Assembly: GCA_002280485.1 (NCBI GenBank)
Contig: NCED01000013.1
Location: forward strand, 1 to 30,004
Direction: 5' to 3'
DNA length: 30,004 bases
DNA from: Caulobacterales bacterium 32-69-10
GTDB lineage: Bacteria > Pseudomonadota > Alphaproteobacteria > Caulobacterales > Caulobacteraceae
Below are positions 1 to 23,245 of this stretch, piece by piece. Made by a program: the position numbers and the translations under genes. How positions within the stretch are numbered: position 1 is the stretch's first letter; each line of letters opens with the position of its first letter. Below the pieces are notes generated by a model, which was not told the DNA's origin, ran no database searches, and was given only the letters and a program-made list of their open reading frames with translations.

Positions 1-1349
1 GGCGCTTCGGCGATACAGAAGCCCTCGCTCTCGATGCGAGCGGTGTCGAGCACGTCGGTGAGCATCCTTTGCAGAACCGTGGCCGACGACTGGATGATCG
101 ACACCATCTCCTTCTGGGCCGGCTCCAGGCCGGAGTGCTGCAGGGCGCTCGCCACCCCCAGGACGCCGTTCAGCGGCGTGCGGATCTCATGGCTCATATT
201 GGCCAGGAACTCGCTCTTGGCCCGGCTGGCGGCCTCGGCGGCGTCCTTGGCCCGCAGCAGGGCCTCGGCGGCGTGCTCGCGAACCGTCACGTCGAAGAAG
301 GCCGAGAGCAGCACCTTGCGCCCGCCCCAATCCACCGACTGGGCGATCGGCTGCATCAGAAGCTCGCCGCCGTCGGCCCTGACGTGACGCCAGTAGCGCT
401 CGCCGTCGTAGGCCGTCTCCCTGGCGGCGACAAAGGCGTTCAGCGCCTCGTGCTCGCCAGGGTGGATCAGGTCGAAGGCCGACAGGCGCTCGAACTCTTC
501 GACGCTGTAGCCATAGGCCCGGGCGGCGGACTCGTTGGCCGAGATGATCTTGAGATCGTCCAGCTCCATCAGCCACATCGGAACGGGGTTGGCGGCGAAC
601 AGCAGCCTCATCTGCTGCGCGCTGGCCCGGCGACCGCGCAGGTCCTGGGCGAGCAGGGCCCCGGCCCCGACCAGCAGGGTCGCGGCCAGCATGGCCACCC
701 CGATCGCCATCTGGCTACGGTCCAGCAGCGCGTCCGGCATCGCCACGGTCGGGTCGGGGGTGATGGTGGCCGCGGCCATGGCGATGAAGTGGAGGCTGCA
801 GATGGCCAGGGTCAGCAGGCCGGCGGCCGCCAGCTGCCGCGACCGGTGCTTGGGACGGAAGACGATCATGGCCAGGATGGCCAGAGCCAGTCCCAGCACC
901 AGCGACGCGCCGACCATGACGGGATCGTAGTGCAGGCGGCCTTGCGGGTGGAACGCCTGCATGCCGCGCCAGTGCATCGAACCGATGCCGGCCGCGAACA
1001 CGGCGCCGCCGGCGATCTGGCGAAGGCGGCTGGACGGCGCCGATACGATGAACGCGATGGCGGTGACGGTCACGCCGATGATCAGGGAGGTGACGGTTCC
1101 GCTCAGGTCGTAGGCCACCGGTATGGCCGGCTCGTAGGCGAGCATGGCGATGAAGTGCGTGGACCAGATGCCCGTGCCGGCGGCCAGGCCGCTGAGCAGC
1201 AGCCAGCCGACCCTGCCGTTTCGCGACGCCTCGTTGGCGCGCTCATAGAGCCTGACGGCCGCCAGGGTGGCGGTCAGGCAGATGACGGCGGCGACCACCA
1301 CGAGGCGGAGATCGTGGCTTTCGGTGATGCAGGCGACAACGCGAAGCAT
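1..1349 (-). CDS. MHYT-PAS sensor histidine kinase (3' end beyond window)
   Basis: Membrane-bound sensor histidine kinase of a two-component system; 449 residues are visible and the reading frame runs off the left edge. The N-terminal 240 residues form an MHYT-type sensor with repeated hydrophobic helices and three His motifs (STHFIAM with H65, SMHWRGM with H126, SLHFIAM with H187). A PAS domain follows at about 245-365, then the dimerisation/phosphoacceptor segment NMSHEIRTPLNGV, whose H387 is the predicted phosphorylated residue. The ATPase domain and any receiver domain lie outside the window. Start ATG at 1349 has GAGGG four bases upstream. MHYT domains are proposed metal sensors for O2, CO or NO; that role is family knowledge and not visible here. 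The stimulus and partner regulator are unknown. Confidence 0.9.
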   Translation of the reverse strand, partial: MLRVVACITESHDLRLVVVAAVICLTATLAAVRLYERANEASRNGRVGWLLLSGLAAGTGIWSTHFIAMLAYEPAIPVAYDLSGTVTSLIIGVTVTAIAFIVSAPSSRLRQIAGGAVFAAGIGSMHWRGMQAFHPQGRLHYDPVMVGASLVLGLALAILAMIVFRPKHRSRQLAAAGLLTLAICSLHFIAMAAATITPDPTVAMPDALLDRSQMAIGVAMLAATLLVGAGALLAQDLRGRRASAQQMRLLFAANPVPMWLMELDDLKIISANESAARAYGYSVEEFERLSAFDLIHPGEHEALNAFVAARETAYDGERYWRHVRADGGELLMQPIAQSVDWGGRKVLLSAFFDVTVREHAAEALLRAKDAAEAASRAKSEFLANMSHEIRTPLNGVLGVASALQHSGLEPAQKEMVSIIQSSATVLQRMLTDVLDTARIESEGFCIAEA

Positions 1350-1407
1350 GGGGCCCTCGTACAGACCGCCCCATCATCCGTGCTCGGCGTTAAGCTTGGG
1401 TTCCTAA

Positions 1408-1438
1408 TGAAAACGCTGAGTTAAGCGGTTTTCAGCGT
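1408..1438 (-). terminator. Intrinsic terminator after the 46-aa peptide gene
   Basis: On the minus strand a 7-bp stem ACGCTGA/TCAGCGT (1438-1432 pairs with 1419-1413, 12-base loop) is followed directly by TTTCATT. The upstream arm contains the TGA stop codon of the small gene at 1432-1572. Position and shape fit a Rho-independent terminator separating that gene from the histidine kinase. The stem is short and the T tract is brief, so this is a moderate call. Confidence 0.45.
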
Positions 1439-1572
1439 CCGAACGCCGCCGCCTCTAGGCCGGTCCAGGCGGCGGCGGGCAGGGCGACGATCAGCACCAG
1501 GGCGATCAGGCTCACCACCAGCCAGAACCCGTCCGAGGGGCGGTGCTTGGCGATGTAGGCGATCAGGCGCAT
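1432..1572 (-). CDS. Small single-pass membrane peptide, 46 aa
   Basis: Unrecognised 46-residue protein. A short basic N-terminus (MRLIAYIAKHRPSDG) is followed by a strongly hydrophobic stretch at residues 16-36 (FWLVVSLIALVLIVALPAAAW), which predicts one transmembrane helix with the N-terminus probably inside. ATG at 1572 has GGAG six bases upstream, and the stop codon lies in the stem of a terminator-like hairpin, so it looks like a proper transcription unit. A longer overlapping frame (1421-1651) is arginine/proline-rich without hydrophobic structure and is rejected. The gene lies 102 bp downstream of ppx on the same strand and may be its last operon member. No function is assigned. Confidence 0.55.
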   Translation of the reverse strand: MRLIAYIAKHRPSDGFWLVVSLIALVLIVALPAAAWTGLEAAAFGR

Positions 1573-1652
1573 GGCCGGCTCCAAAGCTGGGCGGCGGCCG
1601 ACGAATCGGTCGCGATATAGCGATCCTAGTAGTTTCGTTAAAACTGGACAAG

Positions 1653-1666
1653 TCCCGAAAGCGGGA
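1653..1666 (-). terminator. Weak hairpin downstream of ppx
   Basis: A 5-bp perfect stem TCCCG/CGGGA with a four-base loop lies 8 bases after the ppx stop. The minus-strand sequence that follows reaches TTTT only about 9 bases later, so this is a poor intrinsic terminator and may allow read-through into the 46-aa gene. Confidence 0.2.
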
Positions 1667-1674
1667 GGTACGGC

Positions 1675-3210
1675 TCAGGTTGTCCTGAGCTTCGGTTCCA
1701 GGCCCAGGGGCTGAGCCAGGCTGGCCAGGCGCTTGGCGGTCTGCTCGCCGAGCAGCAGGTCGGCGTTGGCGCGGTCGGCGCTCAGCACCACCTGGGCCTT
1801 CTCCAGGGTCAGGCGGGCGGCCGCCAGCAGGGGCGGGCTACGGCCCGACAGGTCGCAACCCAGCCGCATGGCCATCCCCAGGATGCGGGCGCGCTCCAGC
1901 CGTTCGGGGGTCAGCAGCCGGTGTACGGTCTCCGGCTCGGGCGGAGGCTGGGAGGTGTGGCGGGTGAAGATGGCCACGGCCAGGAAGGCGCGCTCGGCGT
2001 GGGTCTGGCCGGGAATCGGGGCGCGCAGCACCTGGTCGAACACCAGCTGGGCGCGGTGGTCCGGATGCAGGCGGGCGCCCAGGTCGGCCAGGCGGCAGGC
2101 GGCGGCCAGCAGCACCGCGTCCCGCTTGCCCTCGAAAACCGGGCCGAGCTTGGTCCAGAACGGCGCGAGCCAGGCCTCCAACGCCGCGCCGAGCTCCTCG
2201 ACCGCCCCCTGGCGCGAGCCAAGCGCCGCGCAGCCCTCGACCAGGGGATCGAGCTTGCGGGTCAGGGCCGGCAGGGCCTCGAAAATCTGGCCCTCGCGCA
2301 GGCCGAAGGCGGAGATCACCACCCGCTGCAGCTCCAGCCGCTCGATCAGGCCCTCCATCACCAGGGCGGCGAAGGGCAGGGTCTCGGCCCGCTTGCGCGA
2401 CACCCCGTCGATGCGTTCGAGGGAGCTGCGCGACTGGCCTGCGACGAAGCGCACCGCCTCCAGGGCGTCGCGCGGGGTCATCTCGTACTGGTGCACGATG
2501 CGCAGGGGATAGCGGACCAGGCTCATGTTGAGCAGGGCGATGTTCCGCCAGGCCCCGCCGACGGCGTAGAAGCAGCCGCCCTTGTAGTCCCTGGCCACCT
2601 TGGACAGGCGCCGGGCCACCTCGGCGCGCACCCGGTCAGGGTCGAAATGGTCGGGAGCCCCCAGGGCGAAGGGGCCGAGCGGCAGGGTGATCCCCGCCCC
2701 GGGCTTGCCGCGGGACAGGCGGATCAGCTCCAGGCTGGAGCCGCCGAGGTCGCCCACCACTCCGTCGGCTCCGGGCTGTCCGGCCGCGACGCCGAGCGCC
2801 GAGAGCCGCGCCTCTTCCTGGCCGGCGATGATGCGGATCTTGAGCCCGGTCTCGGCTAACACCCGGGCGACGAAGTCGGCCCCGTCGCGGGCGTCGCGCA
2901 CGGCGGCGGTGGCGGCGGTGAAGATCTCGTCGGGGCGGACCCCGTCGAGCACGGCCCTGAAGCGGCGCAGGGCGGCGAGCGCGATCTGCACCCCGTGGTC
3001 GGACAGCCGGCCGGTCTGCGGCAGGTCGCGGCCGAGGCCGGCCAGCACCTTCTCGTTGAAGACGGTCCAGATCGCCCGCCCCTCCACCCGGTAGAGCACC
3101 AGGCGGACGGAGTTCGAGCCGACGTCGATGACGGCGAAGTCGCGGTGGGTCCGTTCCGTCTTAACGTCTCGGGCCCACGTGGTCGAAGGCGCGGGGGAGG
3201 TTTTTGACAC
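1675..3210 (-). CDS. ppx: Exopolyphosphatase, Ppx/GppA family
   Basis: Predicted cytoplasmic exopolyphosphatase that removes terminal phosphates from inorganic polyphosphate; guanosine pentaphosphate hydrolysis (GppA activity) cannot be excluded because the family overlaps. The 511-residue protein has the ASKHA-fold phosphate motif [12 protein letters not shown] from D29, a second nucleotide-type loop [10 protein letters not shown] at about 153-162, [10 protein letters not shown] near 127-136, and the [17 protein letters not shown] segment. The C-terminal third is helical, as in longer Ppx proteins. The only plausible start is GTG at 3210, because no ATG, GTG or TTG occurs in frame before the conserved core. 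That start places the first 50 bp inside the end of ppk, implying coupled translation of the kinase and the phosphatase. Confidence 0.92.
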
Positions 3211-5404
3211 TGCGTCCGCGGCCCGAAAGACTAGGGTTGGTCATGAAATAGTCGTGAGCAGAGAACGGCTGGCGATCGCCATGCAGGTCGTAACGCACGA
3301 ACGAACCGTTCGGCTGCAGGTACCAGCTTTGCGCCTCGTCATTCAAGTTGGCGACCATGATCTGCCCCAGAACCTGCTGATGCACGGTGGGGTTTTCGAT
3401 GGGGACCAGGGATTCGATGCGGCGGTCGAGGTTGCGGGGCATCCAGTCGGCGGACGAGATGAACACCCGCGCCTTGGGGCTGGGCATGGGCGCGCCGTTG
3501 GCGAAACAGACCACTCGGCTGTGCTCCAGGAAGCGCCCGACGATGGATTTGACGGTGATGTTCTCGGACAGGCCCTTCACCCCGGGGCGAAGGCAGCAGA
3601 TGCCCCGCACCACCAGTTCGATGCGCACCCCGGCCTGGCTGGCGCGGTAGAGGCCGTCGATGATCTCAGGGTCGACCACCGAGTTGAGCTTGGCCCAGAT
3701 GCCGGCCGGCTTGCCCGCCTGGGCGTTCTCGATCTCGCAGGCGATCCATTCCAGCAGCCGCGGCTTCAGGCTGATCGGCGAGAAGGCCAGCTTCTCCATG
3801 TGCTCCGGCTCGGCATAGCCGGTGATGTAGTTGAACAATCGGTTGGAATCGCGCCCCAGGGCCGGGTCGGAGGTGAACAGCGACAGGTCGGTGTAGATCT
3901 TGGCCGTGATCGGGTGGTAGTTGCCGGTCCCGAAGTGGCAGTAGGTCTTGAGCTCCGAGCCCTCGCGCTTGACCACCAGCGACAGCTTGGCGTGGGTCTT
4001 GTACTCGACGAAGCCGAACACGACGTGGACCCCGGCGCGCTCCAGGTCCCGCGCCCACTTCAGGTTGGCGGCCTCGTCGAAGCGGGCCTTGATCTCGACC
4101 AGGGCGGTGACGTTCTTGCCGTTGTCGGCCGCCTCGATCAGGGCGGCCACGATCGGGCTGTCCGACGAGGTGCGGTACAGGGTCTGTTTGATGGCCAGGA
4201 CCTGGGGGTCGTTGGCCGCCTGGCGCAGGAACTGCACCACCACGTCGAAACTCTCGTACGGGTGGTGGATCAGGATGTCCTTCTCACGGATGGCCGCGAA
4301 GACGTCGCCGCCCTGGTCGCGCACCCGCTCGGGGAAGCGCGGCTCGTAGGGCGGGAACTTCAGGTCGGCCCGGTCCGGCGGGATCAGCTTGCCGAGCTGG
4401 TTCAGCCCCAGCATGCCCTCGACGGTGACCACGTCCTGGGGCTCGGCGTTGAGGTTGCGGACGATGAATTCGCGCAGGTCGGCGGGCATGGAGCCCTCGA
4501 TGGCCACGCTGACCACCAGGCCCAGCCGGCGCTGGCGCAGCATGGCCTCCCATGAGCGAACGAGGTCTTCGGCCTCTTCCTCGACCTCGACGTCGCTGTC
4601 GCGCAGCACCCGGAACACCCCTTGCGCCTCGACCTCGCAGCCGGGGAACAGGTGGTCGAGGAACAGGGCGACGATGTCCTCCAGGGCGATGAAGCGGCGC
4701 TCGCCGTTGCGGGCGCCGACCTCGGCCATGGGCCAGAAGCGGTCGACCTGGGTGGGCACGGGCACCAGGGCGTACATGTGCCGGCCGTCCGAGCGTCGCC
4801 GCAGCTTCATCGCCAGCGAGAAGCCCAGGTTGGGGATGAAGGGGAAGGGGTGGGCCGGGTCGATGGCCAGGGGCGTCAGCACCGGGAACAGCTGGTTGAG
4901 GAAGACCTTCTCCAGCCGCCTGCGCTCGTCCTTCCTGACCTCGTTGGGCTCGACCACCACGATCTTCTCGGCGGCCAGGTCGCGGCGCAGCTTTAGCCAG
5001 CGGTCGGCCTGGGCGTGCATCAGCTCGGCGCCGGCGGCGGTGATGCGGATCAGCTGTTCGTGCGGCGTCAGGCCGTCCTGGCTGACCACGCGCACGCCTT
5101 CACGGACCTGGCCCTTCAGGCCGGCGACGCGGACCATGTAGAATTCGTCGAGGTTGTTGGCCGAGATGGACAGGAACCGAAGCCGCTCGAGCAGCGGGTG
5201 GCGGGGATTCTCGCTCTCCTCCATCACCCGGCGGTTGAAGGCGAGCCAGGAGAGCTCGCGGTTGAAGAACCGCTCGGGTGAGGCCAGCAGCGCCTCGTCC
5301 AGCACGAGGCCGCTGGCGGCCGGCCGCGGGCGCGCGCCGGGCAGGTCGGCGGCCCCCTGGGGTGGGTTGGGGGGCAGTTCGGGCAAAGGGGTCGCGTCGT
5401 CCAT
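3161..5404 (-). CDS. ppk: Polyphosphate kinase 1
   Basis: Synthesises inorganic polyphosphate reversibly from ATP through a phosphohistidine intermediate. The 747-residue length suits PPK1. Domain order: helical N domain containing [15 protein letters not shown] (about 46-60), head domain (about 140-345), then two phospholipase-D-like catalytic domains. The predicted autophosphorylated histidine is H471 in KTHAKL; the second catalytic histidine is H628 in RFLEHSR, and the 157-residue spacing matches remembered E. coli H435/H592. [16 protein letters not shown] (491-506) is the typical PPK1 signature. ATG at 5404. The gene is 92 bp downstream of hdaA and overlaps ppx by 50 bp. A dense group of TTTGT/ACAAA half sites upstream suggests its own regulation. 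Confidence 0.97.
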
Positions 5405-18219: not shown

Positions 18220-18717
18220 CTAGCGGCAGGGCCGAAGCGACAGCCCGCGCGGCAGGCGGGTGGAGGCGTCTCCGCAGGCGCCGTTGAGCTGGCCCTGCGT
18301 CAGGCCCACGGCCCGGTCCATCTCGGCGCCGGAGAAGTTGGTCCCGGCCATGCGGGCGCCGGCGAAATTGGCCCCCTGCAGATAGGCCCCGACGAAGCTG
18401 GCGTTGGTCAGGTCGGCCCCGGCGAAGCTGACCGAGGACAGCACCGCGCCATAGGCGTTGACGTCGCGCATGTCGGTGCGGGCGAAGCTGGTGCGGTTCA
18501 TGATCGAGGCCGACAGATCGGCCTGGCGCAGGCGGGCGCCGGCGAAGTTGCGGCCCTTCAGCTCCTTGTTGCCGAAATTGGCCTGGAACAGGTTGCAGCC
18601 CGGACAGCTCGCCCCGCTGGCGGCGCGCTGCACCTGGCCGGCGTTCTGCGAGAAGGCGGGCGCGGCGAGCGCCAGGCAAGCGGCCAGGACAGCGGTGAAG
18701 GCAGGGGTGCGGTTCAT
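18220..18717 (-). CDS. Exported pentapeptide-repeat protein
   Basis: 165-residue protein with a signal peptide (MNRTPAFTAVLAACLALAAPAFSQ) and then about fifteen consecutive A(D/N)LXX-type pentapeptides (for example NFAGA RLRQA DLSAS, VSFAG ADLTN ASFVG AYLQG ANFAG ARMAG TNFSG AEMDR). These predict a right-handed quadrilateral beta helix of roughly four turns. CPGC precedes the repeats and a further Cys pair sits near the C-terminus. ATG at 18717 is chosen because it starts a textbook signal peptide; upstream frame is basic and would spoil it. The role of such periplasmic solenoids is unknown. It lies just downstream of an intergenic inverted-repeat element. Confidence 0.87.
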   Translation of the reverse strand: MNRTPAFTAVLAACLALAAPAFSQNAGQVQRAASGASCPGCNLFQANFGNKELKGRNFAGARLRQADLSASIMNRTSFARTDMRDVNAYGAVLSSVSFAGADLTNASFVGAYLQGANFAGARMAGTNFSGAEMDRAVGLTQGQLNGACGDASTRLPRGLSLRPCR

Positions 18718-18794
18718 TCTTGATCGCGCCTCGAATGGATTTCGGGGCACCCTAAAGCCAAGGCGTTTCAAAATGCTGAGGGCGAAACTCTTTT

Positions 18795-18924
18795 CCCTCC
18801 CCTTCATGGGGAGGGCGACTCGCGGGCGTCAGGCCCGCGAGCGGGGTGGGGCGGAAACGCCGACGCGTCGGTCACTTCCCCCCACCCGACGCCTTCGGCG
18901 CCACCCTCCCCATGAAGGGGAGGG
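18795..18924. repeat. 130-bp intergenic inverted-repeat element
   Basis: Two perfect 21-bp inverted arms (18795-18815 and 18904-18924) bound the element. Each arm is itself a hairpin, CCCTCCCC-TTCAT-GGGGAGGG in shape. Inside are a 9-bp stem CTCGCGGGC/GCCCGCGAG (18819-18841) and G-rich/C-rich complementary tracts (18842-18851 with 18878-18887). It lies between the acetyltransferase 3' end and the pentapeptide gene. I recall similar CCCTCCCC...GGGGAGGG blocks as dispersed repeats in Caulobacterales genomes; copy number cannot be tested here. Confidence 0.75.
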
Positions 18925-18935
18925 ACAAGAAAGAA

Positions 18936-19358
18936 CTAATCCAGCCGCTTGCCGAAGACCTGCACCGCGTTGATCGTGTAGCCGAGCGCCTCGTAGAAGG
19001 CCGCCGCCGGGTTGTCGTCGCGGACCATCAGCTGCAGCTTTGGCGCGCCGAGATCGCGGGCCCAGGCCTCGCAGGCCGCCATCATCGCCCGGCCGAAGCC
19101 GCGGCCCTGCCGCTCCGGCGCGACGCCGAGGTAGTAGACGCTGGCCCGGTGGCCGTCGAATCCGACCATGGCGGTGGCGACCAGCGCCCCGTCCAGCCGC
19201 CCGGCCAGGATGGTCGAGCCGGGGCCGTACAGGGCCAGGTGCGCGTCGATGTGCGGGTCGTTCCAGGAGCGGGTCAGGCCCGCCGCCCGCCACAGGGCGA
19301 TCACCGCCTCGACCTCGTCGTCCCTGAGGTCGCCGATGACCAGCGGCGGGTCGATCAA
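18936..19358 (-). CDS. GNAT acetyltransferase, YpeA-like
   Basis: Predicted N-acetyltransferase using acetyl-CoA, 140 residues, cytoplasmic. It follows the remembered E. coli YpeA pattern throughout: [46 protein letters not shown] (acetyl-CoA loop QGRGFGRA), [24 protein letters not shown], and terminal FGKRLD. The acceptor substrate is unknown. The best start is TTG at 19358, which overlaps the TGA of the upstream NrdJ-like gene by three bases (TTGA). Longer versions would begin inside that gene with non-homologous sequence. Tight overlap implies translational coupling with the NrdJ-like protein. Confidence 0.85.
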
Positions 19359-22114
19359 CCCGTCGCCCCGGTGGTCTCCCCGCAGGCTTCGCAGACCATC
19401 CGGCTGCCGCGCCGCGACAGGCTGACGTCGCCGCAATGGGGGCAGATGTCGAGGCTGTCGGCCAGGGGCGGCGGGCCGCGCTTGGACGAGGGCAGGAACA
19501 GCAGGTTGTCGGGGGCCGCGCCGCGGGAGAAGCCCTTGGAGATGAAGCGCGAGGCCGGCTGCGGCTGCGGCTCGGCCGCCGCCTCGTCCAGCCCCTCGGC
19601 CTTGCCGCGGCCGAGGCCGTCGGCGTTGAGCTCCTCCGGATCGCCCAACTCCTGGCGGTCGAGGTAGGACACGCCCAGCTCGCGGAAGATGTAGTCGAGG
19701 ATCGAGGTGGCCGAGCGGATGGTGTCGTTGCCGGTGACCTGGCCGGCCGGCTCGAAGCGGGTGTAGACGAAGGCGTCGACGAACTCCTCCAGCGGCACGC
19801 CGTACTGCAGGCCGATCGAGATCGCGATGGCGAAATTGTTCATCAGCGATCGGAAGGCGGCGCCTTCCTTGTGCATGTCGATGAAGATCTCGCCCAGCTC
19901 GCCGTCGTCGTACTCGCCGGTGTGGATATAGACCTTGTGGCCGCCCACGGCCGCCTTCTGGATATAGCCCTTGCGCCGGTCGGGCAGCTTGCGCCGCGCC
20001 GGCGCCCGGTCGACCTCGACGATGCGCTCGACGACCCGTTCCGGGCCGGGCGCGGCGCGGGGCGAGGGGGCTTCAGCTTCCGGCGGCAGGACCAGGGCGG
20101 GGCGATGCTGCGGGCGCACGATGCATACGGCGCGCACGCCGGCGGCGGCGGCGAGCCGCACCTGCGACACGGCTTCGGCGGGCGTCTGCAGGGTCAGGGG
20201 CGTCGCGGCGGGGGCGCAGGCGAAGCGCTCGGTCGCCGCGGCCATGGCCAGCCGCGCCTCCAGGCTGGGCTCGGCGAACACCGCCGCCGGGTCGGGCATG
20301 AGGCCGGGCAGGTCGCTCAGCCGGCCGGAGCCGAACACATAGGTTTGCGCCGCCGCCAGGCCCCGGGGCGAAAAGCCGGCGAAGGCGAGGGTGTCGAAAC
20401 TGGGATCGCCCATCGCTTCGGCCGGGGCGCCCAGCACGTCGCGCACGAAGCCCTCGCCGAGCACGGCCGGCGCGAAGGCCTCGCGCAGGCTGCGCGAGGA
20501 GAGCAGGGCGCCTTCGGCGAGGCTGATCTCGAGCGGGGTGAAGCCCAGGGCCTTGAGCGCCGCCGGGTCGATCTCCGGGGCGCCGTCGAGGGTGCGGGCC
20601 CCAAGCAGATGGGCGCGGACCTCGGCCGGGTCGACGCCGAACCGGCGCAGGGCCTGGAAGGCGGGCTCGGACAGCACCCGGACGACCACCCCGTCGGCGG
20701 TTTCGGCCGCCCCGACCGGCCCGCTCCAGGGTGCGGCGCCGGGCGCGCCGCCGCCGAGGCGGAGGGAAAGCTCGGGGTCCGGGGTCAGGACCGCGACGGT
20801 CAGGTTGCGCAGGCCGTCGGCTTCCGCCCCGGCATGCGCCGCCTCGAACAGGGCGGCGGCGGCCTCGCCGGCCTCGCCGCCAAGGGCGCGGGCGGCGTCG
20901 GCGCGGGCCTGCAGGCTGGCCAGGCGCGCGGTGCTGCCCTCGGCGAAGGCGGGGCAGGCTCCGGCCAGCGTCGCCATCTCGGCCGAGGCCGCCAGGCCCA
21001 CGCCGGCGGCGAGGGCGGTGAGGGCCGAGGCCAGGTTGCGGCCGGCCTCGGAGCCATAGGCCAGGCCTTCGGCGACCAGCATTTCGTGCAGGCCGACGAG
21101 ACCGAGCGACAGCGGCCGGGCGGCGAATCGGGCGGCGGCCTCGGCCTCGGTGGCGCAAAAGCCGCTGGCCGATTCGATCTCCAGGGCCACCGTCCACAGG
21201 CGGGCCAGGGCCGCGAAGCCCTCGGCGTCGAAGCCGTCCTCGGCGCGGAAGGGCTGCAGGGCCAGGGCCGCGCGGGGGGCCAGGGGCGCCAGGGCCAGGA
21301 GCGCCGCGTCGTCGGCGGTGAAGGCGAGGCGGAGCGACCCGTCCTCCCAGGCGGCCAGGGCGGCGATGTCCAGGGTCTGCGCGCCGGCGTGCACCGCCAC
21401 GGGGGCAGGGGGGATGGGATCGGGCACGGCGGCTGGGTTTCGCGCCAGGCCGGCGGCGGCCAGGGCCAGGGCGTCCTGGATCAGGGCGTCGGTCGTCCCC
21501 AGTCCTTGCGCGGCGCGGATGGCGCGGGCGAGGGCAGGGTTGCGCAGGGGGTCGGCGCAGGCCTCGCGGTCGCCCTCGCAGCGGTCGACGGCGTCGGCGA
21601 TGCTGGCCAGGGCCGCCTCGATCACCGCCGCGCCGGTTCGGGCGGCGGCCTGGGCGCGGACGCTCGCCAGGCGCGCGGACAGGTCAGCTTGTCCTCCGAG
21701 GAAGCCGGGCAGGGTCGAGAGCGGCGTCATCGGCGTCAGGGGATCGACGCGGGCGCCGAGCTGAAGTCCAGCCGCGGGTGCGGCCAGGCCGGTGAGCAGG
21801 CTGGCGAACACCTCGTCGCGGAAGACGCCGGCGTCCTCGATGCGGTCGAACAGGCCGAGCCGCCAGCCCCAGGCGGCGAGCCGGTCGGCATAGGCCAGGG
21901 GGGCGCCGTCCAGGACCGCGTCGAAGCCGTCCTCCGCCGGCGGGACCGGCGCGTCGGCGGGCCGGTCGGCGGGCAGGCTGGCGGCCCAGTCGCGCCAGGC
22001 GTCGAGCCGGGCCGCGGTCCAGCTGTCCGGCGCGACGGTCTCGCCGCCGTCGACGGCGCGGGGGCTCACCGCCAGATTGGCCAGCCCGTCGTGAAAGCGC
22101 CGCTCGAACCGCAT
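19355..22114 (-). CDS. NrdJ-derived pseudoenzyme with TSCPD and zinc-ribbon domains
   Basis: A 919-residue relative of the B12-dependent class II ribonucleotide reductase NrdJ that appears catalytically dead. Homology is visible along its length: MRFERRF N-terminus; [16 protein letters not shown] (about 75-90); [17 protein letters not shown] (179-195) matching the NrdJ CEGADGDCFDPEKNPAL insert; [40 protein letters not shown]. But NSPQWFN is replaced by an [14 protein letters not shown] stretch (111-120), and the NPCSE finger loop and catalytic CNLASLN are gone (about 261-286). The C-terminus is well kept: a TSCPD domain (about 710-821: [37 protein letters not shown]) and a four-Cys zinc ribbon (C891, C894, C908, C911). 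ATG at 22114 has GAGGGG just upstream. A regulatory or partner role is possible; function unknown. Confidence 0.85.
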
Positions 22115-22735: not shown

Positions 22736-23245
22736 GTGACCACCGCGGCCGGCCAGGATCAGTGGGCTGAGACGGCGGTTGGCGCCGTGGTGCTGGCCGC
22801 GGCCGCCGGCTTCCTGATCTATGCGCTCGGCCACGCGGGCGCGGGCGGCAAGGCCGGCGGCTACCAGGTCTCGGCCCGCTTCGGCGAGGTCGGCGCCCTG
22901 GCGCCCGGCGCAGACGTGCGGGTGGCGGGGGTCAAGGTCGGGGCGGTGTCCAAGGTCGAGCTCGACCCCAAGACCTTCCTGGCCAAGGCGACCTTCTCCC
23001 TCGACCCCGACATCCAGCTGCCCACCGATTCGACGGCCAAGATCACCTCCGACGGCCTGCTCGGCGGCCAGCACGTCTCGATCTCGCCTGGGGGCGCGAC
23101 GGACAACCTCAAGGCCGGCGGCGAGATCGCGAACACGCAAGGCGCCGTGGACCTGTTCGGCCTGATCGGCCGGGTGCTGCGTCCGGAAACGCCCGCTCAA
23201 CCCCCGGCGGCCGCGGCCGCCGACCCCTATCCTGCTGGAGGCTGA
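22736..23245 (+). CDS. mlaD: MlaD-type MCE domain lipid-transport protein
   Basis: Inner-membrane-anchored periplasmic protein of the Mla phospholipid transport system, 169 residues. A short cytoplasmic tail is followed by a transmembrane helix at about 13-32 (TAVGAVVLAAAAGFLIYALG) and one MCE domain at about 42-128: YQVSARFGEVGALAPGADVRVAGVKVGAVSKVEL, then ITSDGLLGGQHVSISPGG. The C-terminal GAVDLFGLIGRVL is typical of MlaD pore helices, followed by a Pro/Ala tail. MlaD forms a hexameric ring with MlaFEB, whose genes are not in this window. GTG at 22736 lies two bases after the NDUFA12 stop, and DUF2155 follows after three bases, so all three are one transcription unit. Confidence 0.92.
   Translation: MTTAAGQDQWAETAVGAVVLAAAAGFLIYALGHAGAGGKAGGYQVSARFGEVGALAPGADVRVAGVKVGAVSKVELDPKTFLAKATFSLDPDIQLPTDSTAKITSDGLLGGQHVSISPGGATDNLKAGGEIANTQGAVDLFGLIGRVLRPETPAQPPAAAAADPYPAGG

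Follow-up and report, generated by a model that had tools for sequence, protein, structure and literature searches.

The window, that is, the whole 30,004-nucleotide stretch of DNA analysed here, encodes on its minus strand a protein of 919 residues (19355..22114, with the ATG start at 22114 and the stop codon at 19355 included) that, judged by its sequence, is almost certainly the in-place orthologue of the alphaproteobacterial class II ribonucleotide reductase (RNR) NrdJ, turned pseudo-enzyme. This protein, ex-NrdJ, has shed the radical-cysteine loop, the active-site cysteine pair and the terminal redox cysteine pair, and has kept an RNR-fold body together with the near-invariant TSCPD core of its C-terminal domain (CRD). 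The best overall explanation, and in our judgement a reasonably probable one, is that the pseudo-enzyme has been retained for a CRD job that has no need of ribonucleotide reduction. The lineage of a model bacterium shares this RNR pseudo-enzyme.

A preliminary description of the window had proposed this reading frame and its relationship to NrdJ, and both hold: the RNR barrel (E 2.3e-17, 63.3 bits against a cut-off of 23.9) and the TSCPD domain (PF12637; E 4.6e-11, 43.3 bits against a gathering score of 22.8) exceed their Pfam thresholds, and the locus is shared with 14 of 20 intact NrdJ genes. Against NCBIfam PRK07562 (B12-dependent RNR) the window protein scores 428.8 bits, below the cut-off of 1737, and an intact NrdJ (L152) reaches 1947.9 bits. 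Met1 is invariant in an alignment of 34 sequences. The protein comprises, in order along the minus strand, a body (residues 1-690; 20045..22114) that lacks the catalytic loops and is predicted by a structure model of the full protein to keep the RNR barrel fold; within it, an insert bearing a cysteine pair (residues 178-195, with C179 and C186; 21530..21583); the nearly invariant TSCPD core (residues 706-820; 19655..19999); and a zinc-ribbon-like tail without the redox cysteine pair of NrdJ (residues 886-915, with C891, C894, C908 and C911; 19370..19459). The Cys-rich insert [17 protein letters not shown] and the helix [11 protein letters not shown] remarked on previously are both present in the translation, and so is the Ala-rich middle, with 29-31% alanine over residues 110-440. 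The full-length model renders the tail with moderate confidence; modelled by itself, the tail comes out poorly (mean pLDDT 55.9), and the fold comparison covers the body. Searched by sequence against the PDB, the tail yielded five weak matches, the best at E 0.27. Neither Rfam nor tRNA scanning found a match in the window. Elsewhere in the window, polyphosphate kinase and Ppx/GppA reading frames (1675-5404, minus strand) overlap by 50 bases with their starts as listed.

To place ex-NrdJ within its family, we compared three sets of proteins. A protein search with the window protein returned 123 matches (120 listed, the window's own among them), and a genome scan retained 79 loci out of 120 stretches encoding a relative, titled Caulobacter, Phenylobacterium, Brevundimonas, Asticcacaulis, unclassified Caulobacteraceae or Caulobacterales, and a few higher-rank MAGs. 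The window and 64 of these loci form a close dead set (n = 65), the other 15 being cut by a contig end, shorter than 780 residues or broken. Two loci, L038 (781 residues, aberrant end) and L080 (564 residues), have a short or disturbed frame and stand outside all counts. The distant dead set (n = 20, L161-L180) was hand-picked from the higher-scoring dead-like rows of a search of 298 genomes of the order, and the clade around L170 within it is Maricaulis. The intact NrdJ set (n = 20) comes from the 65 genomes of that search with E=0; 18 of its members exceed the PRK07562 cut-off and two fall just under it. A search with the tail only returned 8000 matches, those among the 120 listed lying mainly on short contigs. 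Across the class, NrdJ exceeds the cut-off in 222 of 385 alphaproteobacterial genomes, some of the others scoring at intermediate levels. Databases often still carry ex-NrdJ under the enzyme's label.

The locus speaks for orthology. Upstream of the window gene lie NDUFA12 (PF05071; 22377..22733, plus strand), an MlaD-domain gene (PF02470, 5.3e-22; 22736..23245, plus strand, start approximate), DUF2155 (PF09923; 23249..23947, plus strand) and Aat, the Leu/Phe-tRNA protein transferase (PF03588; 23884..24537, minus strand); NDUFA12 and DUF2155 are divergent from the ex-NrdJ gene. The MlaD-domain gene adjoins some, and not all, of the ex-NrdJ and NrdJ loci viewed. NDUFA12, DUF2155 and Aat occur upstream of 64/65, 59/60 and 60/60 close dead genes, upstream of all 20 distant dead genes and upstream of 14 of the 20 intact NrdJ genes, the remaining six lacking all three in the stretch fetched; these counts omit loci that are too short on that side and show no match. 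Sharing of this locus identifies ex-NrdJ as the orthologue of NrdJ and not a paralogue, as had been supposed. We also rejected a paralogue standing beside a true NrdJ, since the NrdJ locus is shared and a PRK07562-level NrdJ is missing from 30 of 30 dead-gene genomes. In a quick tree of 26 of the 65 close dead, 20 distant dead and 20 intact proteins plus one Methylocapsa NrdJ, all 21 intact rows fall on one side of a branch; the Methylocapsa row, intended as outgroup, lies within them, many branches are long, and the tree is compatible with one loss of catalysis or with several.

The catalytic motifs are missing throughout the dead proteins. NSPQWFN and N-x-CSE are each found in 19 of the 20 intact NrdJ, CNLxS and an ACFI-type motif in all 20, and none of the four in any of the 65 close or 20 distant dead proteins, in keeping with the absences reported earlier for NSPQWFN, N-x-CSE and CNLxS. 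We take the N-x-C-x-E finger loop to carry the radical cysteine and the ACFI-type and CNLxS motifs the active-site pair, and, from RNR biochemistry, Cys 203, 479 and 490 (L152 numbering) to be the catalytic residues. These three presumed catalytic cysteines are missing from 65/65 close and 20/20 distant dead proteins, the sole exception being one cysteine of L167 that a gapped alignment places in the first catalytic column and in which the motif test finds no motif. Whole segments are missing with them: L152 residues 171-269, which hold the first active-site cysteine, and 461-479, which end in the radical cysteine, are absent from 80% or more of the close dead set, and 313 well-filled positions of the intact alignment, including both segments, lack a counterpart in the window protein.

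The C-terminal cysteines tell a more selective story. All 20 intact Caulobacterales NrdJ carry a six-cysteine array, as do, by eye, six NrdJ from plasmid-collection records; none of the 85 dead proteins does. In Stackebrandtia nassauensis NrdJ, according to PMC5704485, all six are required for activity with TCEP, four being assigned to zinc (one of these ligands can be mutated without loss of the zinc) and Cys-933 and Cys-945 to a redox pair. Both redox-shuttle cysteines are missing from all 85 dead proteins, the window's included, and the four zinc-position cysteines are retained in 59 of the 65 close and all 20 distant ones. Of the earlier claim that the tail, with its four ribbon cysteines, is an intact electron shuttle, the ribbon cysteines therefore stand and the shuttle does not; we rejected an intact electron shuttle because the redox pair is gone. 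The six close dead proteins without ribbon cysteines are all from Asticcacaulis and end ahead of the ribbon, so that the ribbon is dispensable there. C179 and C186 of the insert are each present in 59 of the 65 close dead proteins, and the six that lack them are these same ribbon-less ones (L009, L013, L015, L023, L025 and L075, one lineage). Such joint absence hints that the body pair and the ribbon cysteines work together; on the contrary side, several distant dead proteins (e.g. L167, L177 and L180) keep the ribbon without the pair.

Conservation is distributed very unevenly along the protein. Within the close dead, distant dead and intact sets, mean identity between pairs of proteins is 0.90, 0.92 and 0.89 over the TSCPD core (residues 706-820) and 0.40, 0.37 and 0.66 over the body. 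Of the positions that never vary among the 20 intact NrdJ, those kept by 80% or more of the close dead set (n = 65) number 79 of 86 in the tail core and 27 of 291 in the body. dN/dS, which the preliminary description had suggested comparing between N- and C-terminal parts, is lower in the core (residues 706-835) than in the body in every usable pair: 1573/1573 close dead, 38/38 distant dead and 51/51 intact, with median body and core values of 0.73 and 0.16, 0.42 and 0.07, and 0.20 and 0.05, respectively, for pairs that are not independent and an estimator (Nei-Gojobori) that saturates. The trend is no different in the intact enzymes, so slow change of the core is general; the distinctive feature is that it remains slow once the body is released. 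The body, at a median of 0.73 in the close dead proteins versus 0.20 in the enzyme, is clearly less constrained than in NrdJ, yet the twelve closest dead pairs give dN/dS of 0.09-0.25 for the body and 0-0.13 for the core, indicating purifying selection on both.

Among the 298 genomes of the order, sorted by best E with two candidates scored per genome, 65 are intact-like (E=0; 57 over the cut-off), about 13 have neither version (E no better than 1.7e-57) and the remaining 220, a number obtained by subtraction, are dead-like (E about 8e-122 to 5e-72). In the intact-like genomes a TSCPD match occurs once in 62, not at all in G223 and twice in two, where the second match is a 740-residue class II enzyme (G204) or a 135-residue frame (G243). 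No NrdJ over the PRK07562 cut-off was found in any of 30 genomes of relatives that carry the dead gene. In this sample, then, a genome with one version almost never has the other. Weak RNR matches only, seemingly neither version, were seen in G049, G054, G059, G062, G082, G126, G136, G145, G184, G195 and G289.

What, then, might the protein be kept for? That it is a decaying pseudogene whose tail has yet to drift can be all but dismissed: the strongly diverged body (mean identity 0.40, and the high median dN/dS over 1573 pairs) and the two broken-looking copies L038 and L080 could be read this way, but frames of more than 780 residues stay open in 65 of 80 copies (the window and the 79 loci), the body of the twelve closest pairs is under constraint, and the gene occurs across Caulobacter, Phenylobacterium, Brevundimonas and Asticcacaulis. 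We rejected simple decay on dN/dS; random decay that takes in the tail, which the preliminary description had named as refuting its proposal, is not what the orthologues show. Very unlikely, too, is the role proposed in the preliminary description, that of a redox partner or regulator serving a true class II NrdJ encoded elsewhere. A different class II RNR exceeds the TIGR02504 cut-off in 9 of the 30 dead-gene genomes, where a partner role is conceivable, and the one such enzyme read out (L186, from G012; 790-2997, plus strand, about 740 residues, with NPCGE) suggests by its sequence that some Caulobacteraceae have an additional class II RNR that looks active; but that enzyme owns a six-cysteine tail, and 21 of the 30 genomes are without any class II enzyme over either cut-off. 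With ex-NrdJ sitting at the NrdJ locus itself, this shows that partnership with NrdJ is not its general role, and absence from all 85 dead proteins of the two cysteines assigned to the shuttle (PMC5704485) undercuts a redox partnership further.

Two other partners have somewhat more to recommend them. As a dNTP-sensing regulator of class I NrdAB, ex-NrdJ would bind dNTPs through its body or CRD and modulate, or hetero-oligomerise with, NrdA. We hold this to be unlikely. It would fit the RNR-like body fold predicted by the model, the nucleotide-driven, CRD-dependent oligomers described for NrdJ in PMC5704485, and the finding of NrdB in every one of the 47 genomes tested, of which 28 carry the dead gene; however, the other 19 carry intact NrdJ, so NrdB presence is not specific, and linkage is lacking: in the five genomes in which both matches lie on one contig (G084, G138, G185, G292 and G298), 0.7 to 1.2 Mb separate nrdB and the dead gene. 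The preliminary description had asked whether the genome also holds intact nrdJ or nrdAB; among the dead-gene genomes of relatives, a PRK07562-type NrdJ is found in 0/30 and NrdB in 28/28. Less likely still, and on balance improbable, is a functional partnership with the pentapeptide-repeat protein encoded downstream (PF00805, 3.1e-19; 18220..18807, minus strand, with a GNAT gene in between in the window). A same-strand pentapeptide-like frame lies no more than 2 kb downstream of 92/97 genes (19/20 in the intact set, 19/19 in the distant dead and 54/58 in the close dead, leaving out one distant and seven close dead loci that are too short), ten of ten frames sampled from these positives match PF00805, and seven control segments give no match in any group at a strict threshold. 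Nevertheless, controls match in at most 4/19 cases at a loose threshold, several of the proteins look exported by their signal-like N-termini (by eye) when NrdJ is expected to be cytoplasmic, and the adjacency may merely reflect an old operon. Several pentapeptide-repeat proteins beside NrdJ (L141-L180) show, by eye, a CxxC after the signal-like N-terminus, e.g. SCxxCNLFQADxS in L143, L149 and L177.

We therefore return to a CRD job for the retained pseudo-enzyme. Core identity, dN/dS and motif loss together support well the earlier proposal that the protein does something other than catalysis and that its tail is under selection, and the TSCPD core very probably has a role independent of catalysis; a dNTP sensor, likewise suggested there, is a conceivable role. 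ex-NrdJ would have been kept for a CRD job that never needed ribonucleotide reduction and that outlived the enzyme. In S. nassauensis NrdJ, as reported in PMC5704485, the tetramers and hexamers induced by dATP and dGTP require the CRD, which also lowers the effector KL. This role in oligomers makes an oligomeric scaffold or regulator that responds to nucleotides the likeliest mechanism, one that may act by binding some other conserved component of the cell. The two CRD functions described in that source would then have been separated, electron transfer being lost and the part compatible with oligomerisation retained. That nucleotide-responsive oligomerisation is the chemistry of the core is, by this analogy, conceivable but somewhat doubtful. 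A slightly firmer, still tentative, account is that an old catalysis-independent function of the TSCPD core, perhaps nucleotide sensing, is common to bacteria whose NrdJ is active and to those whose NrdJ is dead, and that Caulobacterales that had come to rely on class I RNR gave up the chemistry but could not give up the function, so that the B12 enzyme was turned into a dedicated scaffold or regulator without leaving its locus. ex-NrdJ would in effect be a natural separation-of-function experiment, indicating a CRD role besides electron transfer. The CRD occurs in about 70% of the NrdJ sequences considered in PMC5704485, and its extra role is open to test in an organism amenable to genetics.

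These findings may bear on the annotation of Caulobacter crescentus. PMC6538847 gives NrdJ (CCNA_01966), NrdE and NrdB as its nucleotide-reduction pathway and dNTP production as a use of B12, the legend of panel D naming NrdE, and not NrdJ, among the B12-dependent enzymes; CCNA_01966 is named a vitamin B12-dependent ribonucleotide reductase in PMC5869019. C. vibrioides OR37 and DSM 9893 carry only the dead gene and an RNR-like frame of about 630 residues, presumably class I NrdA, and none of the control genomes, named C. vibrioides among them, exceeds the PRK07562 cut-off. Because these genomes show no NrdJ over the cut-off, we infer that CCNA_01966 is the Caulobacter orthologue of ex-NrdJ, in which case the C. 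crescentus 'NrdJ' would be no B12-dependent reductase. In the openly licensed literature searched, we found no functional description of ex-NrdJ and no paper linking NrdJ with Caulobacterales or the TSCPD domain with a ribonucleotide reductase, and the only one to bring together pentapeptide repeats, RNR and Caulobacter concerns a phage; a word search of PMC9531940 and PMC3019208 found neither 'Caulobacter' nor 'inactive'.

Four known systems invite comparison. Alphaproteobacterial class II NrdJ (PRK07562/NF005736, with a solved relative from Rhodobacter sphaeroides, 7b9p), differs from ex-NrdJ in having the three catalytic and two redox cysteines. Betaherpesviruses have repurposed inactive R1 homologues in which the RNR large-subunit fold is retained for a non-catalytic job, but these are unrelated to ex-NrdJ in class, host and mechanism. 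The CRD of S. nassauensis NrdJd resembles that of ex-NrdJ in its four zinc-assigned cysteines, whereas ex-NrdJ lacks the equivalents of Cys-933 and Cys-945 and bears its CRD on a dead body (PMC5704485). Finally, NrdJb of Pseudomonas aeruginosa NrdJa+b, as the same paper describes it, is a separate CRD subunit, and so likewise a CRD off an active catalytic chain; however, NrdJb serves NrdJa, whereas in ex-NrdJ the redox pair occurs in 0 of 85 proteins, a TIGR02504 partner in only 9 of 30 genomes and, in the other 21, no class II enzyme over cut-off that it could serve.
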